DNA from: Methanocaldococcus fervens AG86
GTDB taxonomy: Archaea; AGJL01; Methanococci; Methanococcales; Methanocaldococcaceae
Assembly: GCF_000023985.1 (NCBI RefSeq)
Contig: NC_013156.1
Location: forward strand, 856,363 to 920,362
Direction: 5' to 3'
DNA: 64,000 nucleotides
The position numbers and the translations under genes are program-made. Positions 4,070 through 34,878 of this stretch are shown in pieces. How positions within the stretch are numbered: the stretch's first letter is position 1; the number at the start of each line of letters is the position of its first letter. Under the pieces are notes generated by a model that was not told the DNA's origin, searched no databases, and worked only from the letters and a program-made list of their open reading frames with translations.

Positions 4070-4846
4070 ATGAAAATAGCAATAACTGGAAAAGGAGGAG
4101 TAGGAAAAACATTTATTGCTTCAACATTAATGAGATTATTTGAGAAAAGAGGATTTAAAGTTATTGGAGTTGATTGCGACCCAAATCCTACGTTGGCTTT
4201 GGCTTTTGGGATTGAAGAAGAGATAATTCCATTATCAAAAAGGCATGATATAATTGAAGAGAGAACTGGGGCTAAACCAGGAACTTATGGAAATGTTTTT
4301 AAAATGAACCCAAAGGTTGATGATTTAATTGACAAAGTTGGATATAAAGTAGGAAACATAACTATCTTGGTTATGGGGACTATAGAAGAGGGAGGAGAAG
4401 GGTGTGTCTGCCCAGCCTCTGTTTTATTGAGGAGGTTGTTAAGGCATTTAATTTTAAAGAGGGATGAAGTTGTTATCTTAGACATGGAAGCAGGTATTGA
4501 GCATTTTGGAAGGAAAACAATAGATACCGTTGATTTAATGCTTATTGTTATAGAACCTACAAAAAAATCGTTGATAACTGCAAAAAGGATGAAGAAATTA
4601 GCCAAAGATTTGGGAATAAAGCATTTGGGTGTGGTTGTCAATAAAGTGAGAGATGAGGATAAAAAATTATTGGAAAGTATTATTAAAGAGGAGCTTGGTT
4701 TAGAAGTTTTAGGATTTATTCCTTATGATGAAGAGGTAGTAAAAAGTGATTTTATGGGAAAACCTATAGATTTAAATTCAAAAGCTGCAAAAGAAGTAGA
4801 GAAGATATTTAACTACATTCTAAAATTAAAAAATTCTATAATTTAA
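4070..4846 (+). CDS. CooC-like nickel-insertion/MinD-type ATPase
   Basis: A 258-residue deviant Walker ATPase of the CooC branch, which uses ATP to help load nickel into carbon monoxide dehydrogenase. It begins MKIAITGKGGVGKTFIAS, the KGGVGKT Walker A at residue 8, then DCDPNPTLALA, the CooC-type GEGCVCPASVLLRRLLRH (the CxC nickel-binding motif of CooC) and VILDMEAGIEHFGR. A longer reading from 4016 adds 18 unconvincing residues inside the previous gene. I chose the ATG after GTGATAAAA. The end overlaps moaA tail to tail by 11 bases. No CODH gene is nearby, so the partner is encoded elsewhere. Confidence 0.85.
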   Translation: MKIAITGKGGVGKTFIASTLMRLFEKRGFKVIGVDCDPNPTLALAFGIEEEIIPLSKRHDIIEERTGAKPGTYGNVFKMNPKVDDLIDKVGYKVGNITILVMGTIEEGGEGCVCPASVLLRRLLRHLILKRDEVVILDMEAGIEHFGRKTIDTVDLMLIVIEPTKKSLITAKRMKKLAKDLGIKHLGVVVNKVRDEDKKLLESIIKEELGLEVLGFIPYDEEVVKSDFMGKPIDLNSKAAKEVEKIFNYILKLKNSII

Positions 4847-5732
4847 AATATGGCTCCCTTCTATTAATACATTCAATAAAATATGGCTCTAAATTCTCTC
4901 CCCTTCTAAGTGGAGTTAAAATATCAACCAAGTTGTCATCTCTCAACAGGCAGGGCTTTAAATAACCGTCGTAAGTTAATCTTATCCTTGTGCAATGCAT
5001 GCAAAACTCGCTGTTATCCATAGGTCTTACAAACTCAACTTCCAATCCATCATCTAATATATATTTCCTCCTATTCTGCATAAATTTTCTTGTAATAACT
5101 TTATCAGCTTTTTCTTTAATTTCATTTTCTATTGATGATATATCATAATAGTATTTTTTAAGACCCTCTTTTAATGGAATAAACTCAATAATTTGTAGTA
5201 TAGCCCCAACATCTCTGCAAAATTCCATAATTTCTGGTAGCTCTTTAATATTAATTGACATAGCTAAAAAATTAACCTTTAAAGGAGTTAATTCCTCTTC
5301 TATAGCCCTTTTAATTCCATTTACAACCTTATTTACATCTCCAAATTTTGTAATCTTTTTATACAATTCAGGATTTAACGTATCTAAGCTCACGTTAACC
5401 CTATCCAATCCAGCATCTTTAAGCTTATCAGCTAAATTTTCTAAGAGGATTCCATTAGTTGTTAATGAGATATCTTTTATCTTTTCATCTTTAATGTTTT
5501 CAATGATTTCACAGATATCTTTTCTTAATAAAGGCTCTCCACCAGAAATTTTTACTTTTCTAACTCCAAATTTCGTTGATGTTTTAGCTATAAGCCCAAT
5601 CTCTTCAGCAGTCATATATCTGCCATTATTGGAATTATGCCCCTCTTTGTGGCAATAAAAACAGTTTAAATTGCATTTATTTGTTATAGAAATCCTAAAA
5701 GACCCAATCTCCCTACCAAATTTATCTCTCAT
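4836..5732 (-). CDS. moaA: GTP 3',8-cyclase (molybdopterin biosynthesis)
   Basis: Radical-SAM enzyme for the first step of molybdopterin synthesis, GTP to cyclic 7,8-dihydro-GTP. The 298-residue protein opens MRDKFGREIGSFRISITN and carries the SAM cluster motif CNLNCFYC, then KISGGEPLLRKD. A second cluster motif near the C-terminus includes CMHCTRIRLTYDGYLKPCLL. A GTG three codons upstream could also be read, but the ATG at 5732 has GTGGATAGT as its ribosome binding site and fits the family start. The cofactor serves tungsten/molybdenum formylmethanofuran and formate dehydrogenases. mobA is present about 41 kb away. Confidence 0.93.
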   Translation of the reverse strand: MRDKFGREIGSFRISITNKCNLNCFYCHKEGHNSNNGRYMTAEEIGLIAKTSTKFGVRKVKISGGEPLLRKDICEIIENIKDEKIKDISLTTNGILLENLADKLKDAGLDRVNVSLDTLNPELYKKITKFGDVNKVVNGIKRAIEEELTPLKVNFLAMSINIKELPEIMEFCRDVGAILQIIEFIPLKEGLKKYYYDISSIENEIKEKADKVITRKFMQNRRKYILDDGLEVEFVRPMDNSEFCMHCTRIRLTYDGYLKPCLLRDDNLVDILTPLRRGENLEPYFIECINRREPYFKL

Positions 5733-5830
5733 ACTATCCACTACTAAAAGTTAAGCTTCTAAAAAATAATATAGGAGATTAATTATAAAAAAGCTACGTA
5801 ATGATTTCAAATTAATCAAAATATATAAAT

Positions 5831-6541
5831 TTATTCACTCTTTTCTTCTTTCTTCTCTTCTTTACTTTCCTTTTTTCTTTCAAATGTTTCAACAAAGTTG
5901 ACTTTTTCAGCATCTTCCAATCTCTTCAATATTTCATTGGCAATAGCCATCTTAGCAGTCTGAATATTTGGCATAAATGGAGCAAACTCTGGCAACTCTA
6001 TTTTAACTGTTCCATTTCTAATGGTTACCTTTACATTATCTAATCTTGGAACGTACATCTTTACAATCTCTTTTACCATCTCTTTTTTATCATCAACAAC
6101 TTCTTCAATTCTTATTCTATACTTTACCTCTTTTCCAGCCAATTCGTGGTTGAAATCAACTAAAACTCTTCCGCTGTTTATACTTACAATTTTTCCTGGC
6201 ACTCCATCTATTGTAATTGGTAATCCTTTTATTGGTTTAATACCTCTCTTTTTAAATTCTGATAATGGAACTAATTTTATCTTTGATGGGTCTCTTTTAC
6301 CAAATGCCTTTTCTGGAGGTAAAACAACTTCTCTTTCTTCTCCAACATCCATCTCCAATATAACTTCGTCTAAACCTGGCAACACCTGCCCCTCTCCTGC
6401 AAAAATAGCTACAGGTCCATAAACCATCGCAGGATTGTAAATTCCTTCTTTTTTAGCCAATTCCTCGTTAGTTGTGTCAAATAATCTATCATCTACGTAT
6501 CCATCATAGCTAATCTTTACCATTTTTCCTTTTTCTACCAT
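5831..6541 (-). CDS. FKBP-type peptidyl-prolyl isomerase (long archaeal form)
   Basis: Folding helper that isomerises Xaa-Pro bonds. The 236-residue protein begins [24 protein letters not shown], followed by the SlyD-like core with [17 protein letters not shown], the [11 protein letters not shown] loop and [10 protein letters not shown]. It then continues into the roughly 90-residue C-terminal domain of the large archaeal FKBPs and ends in a charged Lys/Glu tail. The upstream GTG reading adds three residues, but GATGAGGTGG sits at the right distance for the ATG at 6541. Monocistronic as far as visible. Confidence 0.9.
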
Positions 6542-31808: not shown

Positions 31809-32132
31809 ATGGAAATTGTTAAGATATGTCCTGAACTTGACATTGTTATGGAGGTTGATTCTGGTTTAGTAGCAGAGATGAGAAAAGATGTACTCGTCGT
31901 TGATTTAATTCATGTAGAAGAAAGAATTCAAAAATTAGAGAAGTTAGTCAATGCATTAGAGGGAGCATTAGACCCAAGAAACCCACCATTACTCTCATAT
32001 CCAAACAGAGATGGGGTTTACGAGATATCAGGTTACTTCAAAGGAATATTCTTTGGATTTTGGATAACATTAGCAATTATGACACTTGCAATATTTACAA
32101 TAATCAAACTATTCCCAGGTTTAATTCAATAA
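31809..32132 (+). CDS. mtrB: Tetrahydromethanopterin S-methyltransferase subunit B
   Basis: 107-residue subunit: a soluble N-terminal part (VKICPELDIVMEVDSGLVAEMRKD), a short coiled coil (RIQKLEKLVNALEGALDP) and one C-terminal membrane helix (FFGFWITLAIMTLAIFTII). Its last four codons, TTAATTCAATAA, recur after the mtrA stop codon and mark the left edge of the mtrA duplication. Confidence 0.93.
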   Translation: MEIVKICPELDIVMEVDSGLVAEMRKDVLVVDLIHVEERIQKLEKLVNALEGALDPRNPPLLSYPNRDGVYEISGYFKGIFFGFWITLAIMTLAIFTIIKLFPGLIQ

Positions 32133-32663
32133 GGAGGTGCTAAAACATGGCTAACAAAAAATCCCCAGCACCAGGATGGCCTATCGTCTCTGGGGAATAC
32201 GTTGTCGGTAACCCAGAGAGCTGTGTTGGAGTCGTAACATTAGGTTCACACGGTTTAGAACAGGCTTGCATTGATGCTGGAGCTGCTATCGTAGGACCTT
32301 GCCACACAGAAAACTTAGGTATCGAAAAAATCATAGCAAACTACATATCAAACCCAAACATCAGATTCATGGTTCTCTGCGGTTCAGAAGTCCAAGGACA
32401 CTTAACAGGACAATGTCTCAAAGCATTATGGGAAAACGGTATCGGAGACGACGGAGGAATCATCGGAGCTAAAGGAGCTATCCCATTCTTAGAAAATGTC
32501 AACAAAGAAGCTGTTGAAAGATTCAGAAGACAAATAGTCGAAGTCGTTGATTTAATCGACTGCGAAGACGTCAACAAAATAACACAAGCAATCAAAGAAT
32601 GCATAAGCAAAGACCCAGGAGCAATCGACGAAGAACCAATAGTCCTCGAATTAGAAAGTGGAG
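32120..32663 (+). repeat. 544-bp perfect direct repeat, copy 1
   Basis: Identical base for base to 32868-33411 (offset 748). I compared the two copies line by line and saw no difference. The unit starts in the last codons of mtrB, includes the AAGGAGGTGC ribosome binding site, and covers the first 172 codons of mtrA. Bases 32119 and 32664 are the first mismatches. Confidence 0.97.
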
Positions 32664-32872
32664 GAGAAGGGACAGAAGAAGAAGGAGCTACTGTAAAACC
32701 AACCTCTCCAGAGATTGCATTACTAGAAGCAAGAATGAGAATATTATCTGAAAAAATAAACAGTTCTGCATTACTTGCAAAATATAATTCAGGATATTAC
32801 AACGGAAAAATCCAAGGAATAGCAATAGGATTGTTTGTTTCAATATTGCTATTCTCTCTCTTAGGTATTTAA
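32147..32872 (+). CDS. mtrA: Tetrahydromethanopterin S-methyltransferase subunit A (cobamide carrier)
   Basis: 241-residue subunit carrying the corrinoid that shuttles the methyl group. The soluble cobamide-binding domain (residues 1-168) has [39 protein letters not shown] and [20 protein letters not shown], then [13 protein letters not shown]. After an acidic linker ([15 protein letters not shown]) the C-terminus has one coiled-coil piece and one membrane helix ([17 protein letters not shown]). Ribosome binding site AAGGAGGTG, stronger than its neighbours. The first 172 codons are repeated exactly in the next gene. Confidence 0.95.
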
Positions 32873-33411
32873 TTCAATAAGGAGGTGCTAAAACATGGCT
32901 AACAAAAAATCCCCAGCACCAGGATGGCCTATCGTCTCTGGGGAATACGTTGTCGGTAACCCAGAGAGCTGTGTTGGAGTCGTAACATTAGGTTCACACG
33001 GTTTAGAACAGGCTTGCATTGATGCTGGAGCTGCTATCGTAGGACCTTGCCACACAGAAAACTTAGGTATCGAAAAAATCATAGCAAACTACATATCAAA
33101 CCCAAACATCAGATTCATGGTTCTCTGCGGTTCAGAAGTCCAAGGACACTTAACAGGACAATGTCTCAAAGCATTATGGGAAAACGGTATCGGAGACGAC
33201 GGAGGAATCATCGGAGCTAAAGGAGCTATCCCATTCTTAGAAAATGTCAACAAAGAAGCTGTTGAAAGATTCAGAAGACAAATAGTCGAAGTCGTTGATT
33301 TAATCGACTGCGAAGACGTCAACAAAATAACACAAGCAATCAAAGAATGCATAAGCAAAGACCCAGGAGCAATCGACGAAGAACCAATAGTCCTCGAATT
33401 AGAAAGTGGAG
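32868..33411 (+). repeat. 544-bp perfect direct repeat, copy 2
   Basis: Second copy of the tract at 32120-32663, beginning inside the mtrA stop region with the mtrB-derived TTTAATTCAATAAGGAGG and ending in codon 173 of the fusion gene. Downstream the two genes have nothing in common. Confidence 0.97.
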
Positions 33412-33656
33412 AAGCTAAAGAAGGTGGAGAAGAGGAAGGTTTTGAAATCGAAGGAATTCCAAAAGTTGTCGAGCCAGATTTAGAATACTGCGATAAATTG
33501 TTGGAAAAATTAGAATACAAAGTTGGATTGATGACAAGAGATATTGAATTAGCATCAGGGGTCTTTGCAAAATCCACCCAAGGTGTTATAATCGGTTCGG
33601 CTATGGCATTTGTGTTGGTAATTATCCCAGTTATATTAAAAATGTTGATAGGGTGA
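32895..33656 (+). CDS. mtrF: MtrA-MtrF fusion protein (second MtrA cobamide domain plus MtrF)
   Basis: A 253-residue protein at the usual place of mtrF. Residues 1-172 are identical to MtrA, with the full corrinoid-binding domain. After an acidic linker ([15 protein letters not shown]) comes a domain of about 65 residues that looks like Mtr[39 protein letters not shown] and one membrane helix ([18 protein letters not shown]). MtrF elsewhere is about 70 residues. So the complex may hold two corrinoid domains per unit. Whether a fusion of this kind is standard in Methanocaldococcus I cannot check here. Confidence 0.85.
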
Positions 33657-33660
33657 TTAA

Positions 33661-33897
33661 ATGAGTGAAATTCCTACTGTTGTTACTCCTACAAAGGATT
33701 TTAAAAGGTTAATGGAAAAGCTTGAAGAACTTGAAGAAAAAGTAGAAAACACAAATGCTGAAATATTCCAAAGAGCTGGAAAAAAAGTTGGTAGAGATGT
33801 AGGAATTGCCTACGGTTTAATTATTGGGACCTTAGTGGCAATTGTATTGCCTAACTTACTAAATGTAATGCAATTAGTAGTTAAAATGGCACAATAA
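33661..33897 (+). CDS. mtrG: Tetrahydromethanopterin S-methyltransferase subunit G
   Basis: 78-residue subunit: coiled-coil N-terminus (FKRLMEKLEELEEKVENTNAE), the conserved RAGKKVGRDVGIAYG and one membrane helix (LIIGTLVAIVLPNLL). Four bases after the fusion gene, with GGGTGATTAA before the ATG, so translation is coupled. Confidence 0.93.
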   Translation: MSEIPTVVTPTKDFKRLMEKLEELEEKVENTNAEIFQRAGKKVGRDVGIAYGLIIGTLVAIVLPNLLNVMQLVVKMAQ

Positions 33898-33918: not shown

Positions 33919-34878
33919 ATGTTCAAATTTGAAAAAGAACAGATGGTTGTAGAAATTGGAGGAAGAAAAATTGGTGGACAGCCAGGAGAATACCCAACAG
34001 CTTTAGCAGGAACCATTTTCTACGCAAGACACAAGATTGTTGAAGATGAAAGAAAAGGTATCTTCGACAAAGCAGCAGCGGAGGATTTAATTAACAAACA
34101 GGCAGAGATGGAAGACATAACTGGAAACCCTGCAATGGTTCAGGTATTTGGAGCTACACCTGAAGCTATAATTAATTACATTGATTTCGTTGCTGAAATT
34201 TGGGACGGTCCAATGTTGTTGGACTCTACATCTAGAGAAGCAAGAATGGCTGCTGCAAAAAGAGCTACTGAAGCTGGATTTGCCAATCAGTGTATTTACA
34301 ACTCTATCAACGTTTCCATTGATGAAGAAGAGTTTAAAAACTTAGTAGAAAGTGATATTGAGGCTTCAATTGTCTTATGTTTTGACCCAATGGATCCAAG
34401 TGTTGAAGGTAAAATTAACGTTCTCTTAAATGGTGGTAAGACAGCAGATACAGGAATGTTAGAATTAGCTGAAAAAGCTGGAATTAAATACCCATTAGTT
34501 GACGTTGCTGTTACACCATTAGGAGCTGGAGCAGGTAATGCAGTTAGAGCATCATTCGCTGTTAAGGCAAAATTAGGTTTACCTGTTGGTAGTGGTATTC
34601 ACAACGTTCCATCAGCATGGGACTGGTTAAGAACATTTAGAAAACAGTTGAGAGAAAGCGGTAAAACTCAATTAGCTAAGGATATCCACCACGTATGTGA
34701 TATTGGAGCAAACATAGTCCAAGTTATGGCATCAGGAGACTTTGTTCTCTACGGTCCAATTGACAACGCTCAATTAGCATTCCCAGCAGTTGCTATGACA
34801 GACATGATGATTGCAGAAGCTGCAAAAGATATGGGAATCACACCAGTTGAGAACCACCCAATCCACAGATTAGTATAA
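33919..34878 (+). CDS. mtrH: Tetrahydromethanopterin S-methyltransferase subunit H
   Basis: 319-residue soluble subunit that transfers the methyl group from methyl-tetrahydromethanopterin to the corrinoid of MtrA. It starts MFKFEKEQMVVEIGGRKIGGQPGEY and contains the TIM-barrel marks MLLDSTSREARMAAAKRATE, ASIVLCFDPMDPSVEGK and VASGDFVLYGPIDNA-type residues near the end. The ATG at 33919 is six bases after GAGGTGAT; an upstream GTG lacks spacing. Last gene of mtr, followed by a T-run. Confidence 0.95.
   Translation: MFKFEKEQMVVEIGGRKIGGQPGEYPTALAGTIFYARHKIVEDERKGIFDKAAAEDLINKQAEMEDITGNPAMVQVFGATPEAIINYIDFVAEIWDGPMLLDSTSREARMAAAKRATEAGFANQCIYNSINVSIDEEEFKNLVESDIEASIVLCFDPMDPSVEGKINVLLNGGKTADTGMLELAEKAGIKYPLVDVAVTPLGAGAGNAVRASFAVKAKLGLPVGSGIHNVPSAWDWLRTFRKQLRESGKTQLAKDIHHVCDIGANIVQVMASGDFVLYGPIDNAQLAFPAVAMTDMMIAEAAKDMGITPVENHPIHRLV

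Follow-up and report, generated by a model that had tools for sequence, protein, structure and literature searches.

Two identical MtrA corrinoid domains, one of them fused to MtrF, in the mtr operon of Methanocaldococcus fervens

The mtr operon and its repeated tract

The window analysed here is a stretch of 64,000 nucleotides from the chromosome of M. fervens AG86, and it contains an mtr operon with the gene order mtrE-D-C-B-A-(A-F)-G-H. All features described below lie on the forward strand. The gene mtrB (31809-32132, PF05440) is followed by mtrA-1 (32147-32872, PF04208 and TIGR01111), whose product of 241 amino acids consists of the MtrA corrinoid domain and its own C-terminal stalk or membrane helix. 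Directly downstream lies a second mtrA (32895-33656), which has no MtrA anchor and is instead joined in frame to MtrF. This single open reading frame encodes 253 amino acids with both domains (PF04208 at residues 4-176, PF09472 at residues 187-248; TIGR02507), and we found no separate start codon ahead of its MtrF region. The two genes thus form a pair of mtrA-1 and the mtrA-mtrF fusion gene mtrA-2a. They are followed by mtrG (33661-33897, PF04210) and mtrH (33922-34878, PF02007). The cobalt-ligating histidine, which is His84 in the MtrA of M. marburgensis (PMC4915002), is kept in both copies as His85 within the motif GSEVQGH. The subunits and their order are the same as in the canonical mtrEDCBAFGH operon (e.g. 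that of G003, and the operon of the cryo-EM structures, PMC10998594, PMC12774963); however, the canonical operon has only one corrinoid domain and its MtrF is a free protein of 70-80 amino acids.

The two mtrA genes share a tract of 544 bp, located at 32120-32663 and 32868-33411, without a single difference. Its first 13 bases are the end of mtrB (32120-32132); the ribosome binding site GGAGGTG (32133-32139) and the complete corrinoid domain follow, up to the start of the linker. What remains unique to each gene is, for mtrA-1, the rest of the linker and the MtrA anchor helix (32664-32872) and, for the fusion, a linker and the MtrF stalk or membrane helix (33412-33656). The match extends no base further on either side, and the adjoining 20-base blocks agree at only 3-9 of 20 positions, which is the level of chance. 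Chance as the source of the identity itself is excluded. Thus, the identity and the unrelated flanks reported in a first-pass annotation of this DNA are borne out. The same annotation described the tract as a unit placed before mtrF and missed the fusion: the second copy does adjoin the MtrF region, but it is part of the 253-residue reading frame and not a standalone unit. It also described the 13-base scrap behind mtrA as having no coding role. The 3' end of mtrA-1 reads GGT ATT TAA, of which ATT TAA falls within TTTAATTCAATAA; the first five bases of the scrap, TTTAA, therefore complete an isoleucine codon and provide the mtrA stop. The direct repeats are spaced 748 bp from start to start. 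In a genome-wide search, these two were the MtrA domains of M. fervens, and no third copy of the tract was found.

The base composition of the domain is a separate observation. Between 32147 and 32653, third positions strongly favour C over T (0.66, compared to 0.30 in the flanking mtr genes). This preference is present in M. fervens and more weakly in its nearest relative, and it is not general to genomes with two copies. The third-position GC content of the domain is likewise raised in M. fervens (0.37 vs 0.25 in flanking genes). GC-biased conversion was considered and dropped, as the two-copy genomes as a group do not differ from the others (p 0.95).

Homogenisation of the two copies across genomes

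To compare the two copies across species, the mtr operon was extracted from 31 genomes of the Methanococci, 11 of which carry both copies. In 10 of these 11, the paralogous domains differ by only 0-4 of 507 nucleotides, whereas the orthologue in the nearest genome shows 85-95% identity, leaving aside the trio G018-G020, whose members are near-identical. For M. fervens (G000), the domains are 100% identical within the genome compared to 89.3% identity to the nearest orthologue. The copies pair by genome in a tree of the DNA sequences, except inside the same trio, and a single clade of mtrA-2 is rejected (AU test, p 3.4e-7; lnL difference 773). The first-pass annotation had suggested ongoing gene conversion, with the prediction that paralogues within a genome are closer than orthologues. 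Run across the 11 two-copy genomes, this test nearly always gives the predicted result and the tree agrees with it, so that ongoing conversion is supported.

The time of the last homogenisation can be approximated from silent sites. Between M. fervens and its nearest relative, G001, the dS of the corrinoid domain is 0.44, similar to that of the neighbouring genes (0.41-0.56); thus, about 37 silent differences between the M. fervens paralogues are expected to have accumulated since that split. None is observed; by the 95% bound, the copies would have been homogenised most recently within about the final 6% of the divergence between the two genomes. The edges of the tract vary by lineage: the upstream edge lies 3 to 27 bases before the start codon, the downstream edge anywhere from about codon 159 to the linker. 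Such lineage-specific edges fit with repeated, separate conversion events. Conversion is not universal, since in one two-copy genome (G015, locus L099) the copies have drifted apart by 59 of 507 nucleotides (12%) and 31 residues. It is the only two-copy genome that has escaped homogenisation. The differences between its paralogues crowd in the 3' part of the domain.

The homogenised mtrA-1/mtrA-2a pair of M. fervens is already known, a fact of which the first-pass annotation was unaware. The pair of mtrA-1 and mtrA-2a, the latter an mtrA-F fusion, was described for Methanococcales by Wang et al. (2015, G3). M. fervens AG86 is one of their species (PMC4632066, Figure 2), the mean paralogue identity is 99.7%, and recurrent, long-lasting gene conversion is supported with trees and with GENECONV in the same species. 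A study from 2018 recovered mtrA in a genome-wide search for long-lasting concerted evolution (PMC6053082). In PMC4632066, the operon, the fusion, the gene order, the species name and the inference of recurrent conversion are all as found here, and nothing essential differs. The same source describes a further fusion, mtrA-2b of Methanomicrobiales, which resembles the present case in that a second corrinoid domain sits on another stalk helix and is also homogenised; unlike mtrA-2a, it is joined to MtrG, lies between mtrF and mtrH and is, according to its authors, of independent origin. When genome contigs were scanned with the fusion protein, matches were found only to relatives in Methanomicrobiales, with no useful neighbours.

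The locus holds two MtrA corrinoid domains, in mtrA-1 and in an mtrA duplicate fused to mtrF. Taken together with the comparison above, we consider it very likely that this duplicate is ancient and that recurrent gene conversion keeps the two domains identical. Recombination between the direct repeats, 748 bp apart, would repeatedly overwrite one copy with the other. The latest conversion tract would have had its left end within mtrB, 13 bases before the end of that gene, and its right end in the linker, with the ribosome binding site and the corrinoid domain in between. Because the left edge of the tract derives from mtrB, the latest copying most likely went from mtrA-1 to mtrA-2; this agrees with the earlier proposal that the mtrB-mtrA junction was the source of the copy.

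Age and spread of the fusion

The first-pass annotation regarded the placement before mtrF as possibly very recent. However, G001, which is about 10% diverged from M. fervens, carries the fusion with the same linker and the same joint between linker and MtrF, and in the sister family the genomes with two copies or with the fusion show the same arrangement with a homologous joint. On this comparison of sequences, the duplication and the fusion are old and only the homogenisation is recent. Wherever the locus is assembled in other Methanocaldococcus genomes, mtrA and mtrF are separate genes. The whole mtrC-mtrG region is absent from three draft genomes (G007, G010 and G011; 81-89% complete).

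At least some of the forms with separate genes are probably secondary. In G029 (L112), a member of the sister family, the free mtrF starts with the mtrA ribosome-binding stretch TTGGAGGTGCTAATA followed by the linker residues GEEG. We interpret this leader as the scar of a corrinoid domain that was deleted from a former fusion, i.e. a reverse loss. Furthermore, the leaders of mtrF and mtrA are alike at 12 of 14 bases in G004, G005 and G009, compared to at most 8 for other mtr genes, which is suggestive of the same kind of scar.

A different history, which we consider possible but unlikely, is that the fusion and the shared corrinoid domain reached this lineage horizontally, with a Methanotorris-like relative as the donor, and were homogenised afterwards. 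The mtrA anchor and the MtrF tail of M. fervens are indeed closer to G035 (81% and 75%) than to G004 (75% and 71%), whereas its mtrB and mtrG are closer to G004. Yet the trees group anchor plus MtrF of all F-type Methanocaldococcus (88/81), and mtrB plus mtrG firmly so (100/99). The probable loss scars in G004, G005 and G009 also fit with ancestral presence of the fusion. An AU test of the import of the mtrA-mtrF segment from such a donor did not reject it (p 0.16) and lent it no support. Independently of the fusion, we observed that mtrB, the MtrA anchor, mtrF and mtrG occur in two strongly different sets (G023 = L107; L030, L034, L035, L036 and L038), which is not the case for mtrE, mtrD, mtrC and mtrH. 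The four stalk parts seem to have been exchanged as a block, because G023, although a member of the sister family, has the same set as the M. jannaschii-like group.

If the gene had been duplicated and fused just once, recently and only in M. fervens, the 544 positions without a difference and the separate genes in most Methanocaldococcus genomes would be explained without any conversion; however, the same joint and linker in the diverged G001 and the homologous joint in the sister family mean that every species would need its own fusion, and this very improbable scenario is largely refuted. That the segment was wrongly doubled during assembly has a negligible probability: repeats of this size do mislead assemblers, as in the draft G034, where mtrB-N-F is split from the end and anchor of the other copy on a tiny contig, but the chromosome of the window is one contig of 1,485,061 bp (assembly total 1,507,251 bp), the copies have different, intact and homologous tails and clean reading frames, and the same layout is present in other single-contig chromosomes (e.g. 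G014, G022, G033 and G035).

The assembly of G001 needs more caution. Its locus reads mtrB-(A-F), and a whole-genome search revealed no MtrA anchor anywhere in the genome. L029 of this genome (reverse complement 4317-6112) contains a perfect tandem repeat with a length of 898 bp, made up of mtrB and the 3' part of mtrC. The repeat breaks in mtrB immediately behind CCCAGG, at the same base as the start of the tract in the window. Since the MtrA helices lie at the centre of the stalk in the structures known so far (PMC10998594, PMC12774963), we take G001 to be probably misassembled at the repeat; alternatively, the anchor may really have been lost, or the same spot may have been rearranged twice. 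The draft G034 is visibly misassembled at its mtr repeat. Thus, support for the fusion within the genus is thin, as G001 is the only Methanocaldococcus genome besides M. fervens that carries it.

A corrinoid domain carried on MtrF

Lastly, we describe a lineage in which the corrinoid domain is present only on MtrF. In seven genomes of one sister lineage, namely G021 (L105), G024 (L108), G025 (L109), G026 (L110), G028 (L111; complete, one contig), G030 (L113) and G032 (L114), the gene after mtrB is a remnant of 106-127 amino acids with a degenerate N-terminus and an intact linker and anchor helix. The N-terminus is still legible in G026 and G030 (MIDKRTPESG...GEYLLKN). The next gene is the MtrA-MtrF fusion, which holds the sole MtrA domain of the genome, and the seven genomes form one clade (99*). 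As only the fusion-borne domain is kept, the corrinoid domain has moved from MtrA to MtrF in this lineage. It is likely that such a shift after the duplication can be permanent, that mtrA-1 lost its domain by internal deletion, that MtrF alone now bears the B12 carrier of the sodium pump Mtr, and that the homogenised pair of M. fervens represents an intermediate stage that can lead to the loss of either carrier. We found no report of this stub form in a literature search that covered few subscription journals; nor did we find, in PMC4632066, PMC6053082 or the other papers searched, the loss scars, the exception of G015 or tract edges given to the base.

In solved Mtr complexes, the helices of MtrA, MtrB, MtrF and MtrG build a stalk of threefold symmetry, at whose cytoplasmic tip their N-termini lie, and the corrinoid domain of MtrA swings on a flexible linker (PMC10998594, PMC12774963). 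A domain borne by MtrF would start from nearly the same place as that of MtrA. This makes it plausible that the fusion attaches another corrinoid domain to the stalk helix of MtrF and probably provides a second set of carriers, i.e. six instead of three per complex. The lineage that has no corrinoid domain other than that on MtrF lends indirect support to this role.

The locus in M. fervens is a clean, published case of an essential domain whose two copies stay identical through gene conversion although they sit on different membrane anchors. The comparison across genomes matters more: the domain that carries the methyl group in the methanogenic sodium pump can ride on a different stalk helix, and in some lineages it does so exclusively. 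Lineages with the MtrF-only arrangement thus offer a direct test of whether the anchor of MtrA must itself move in Na+ pumping.
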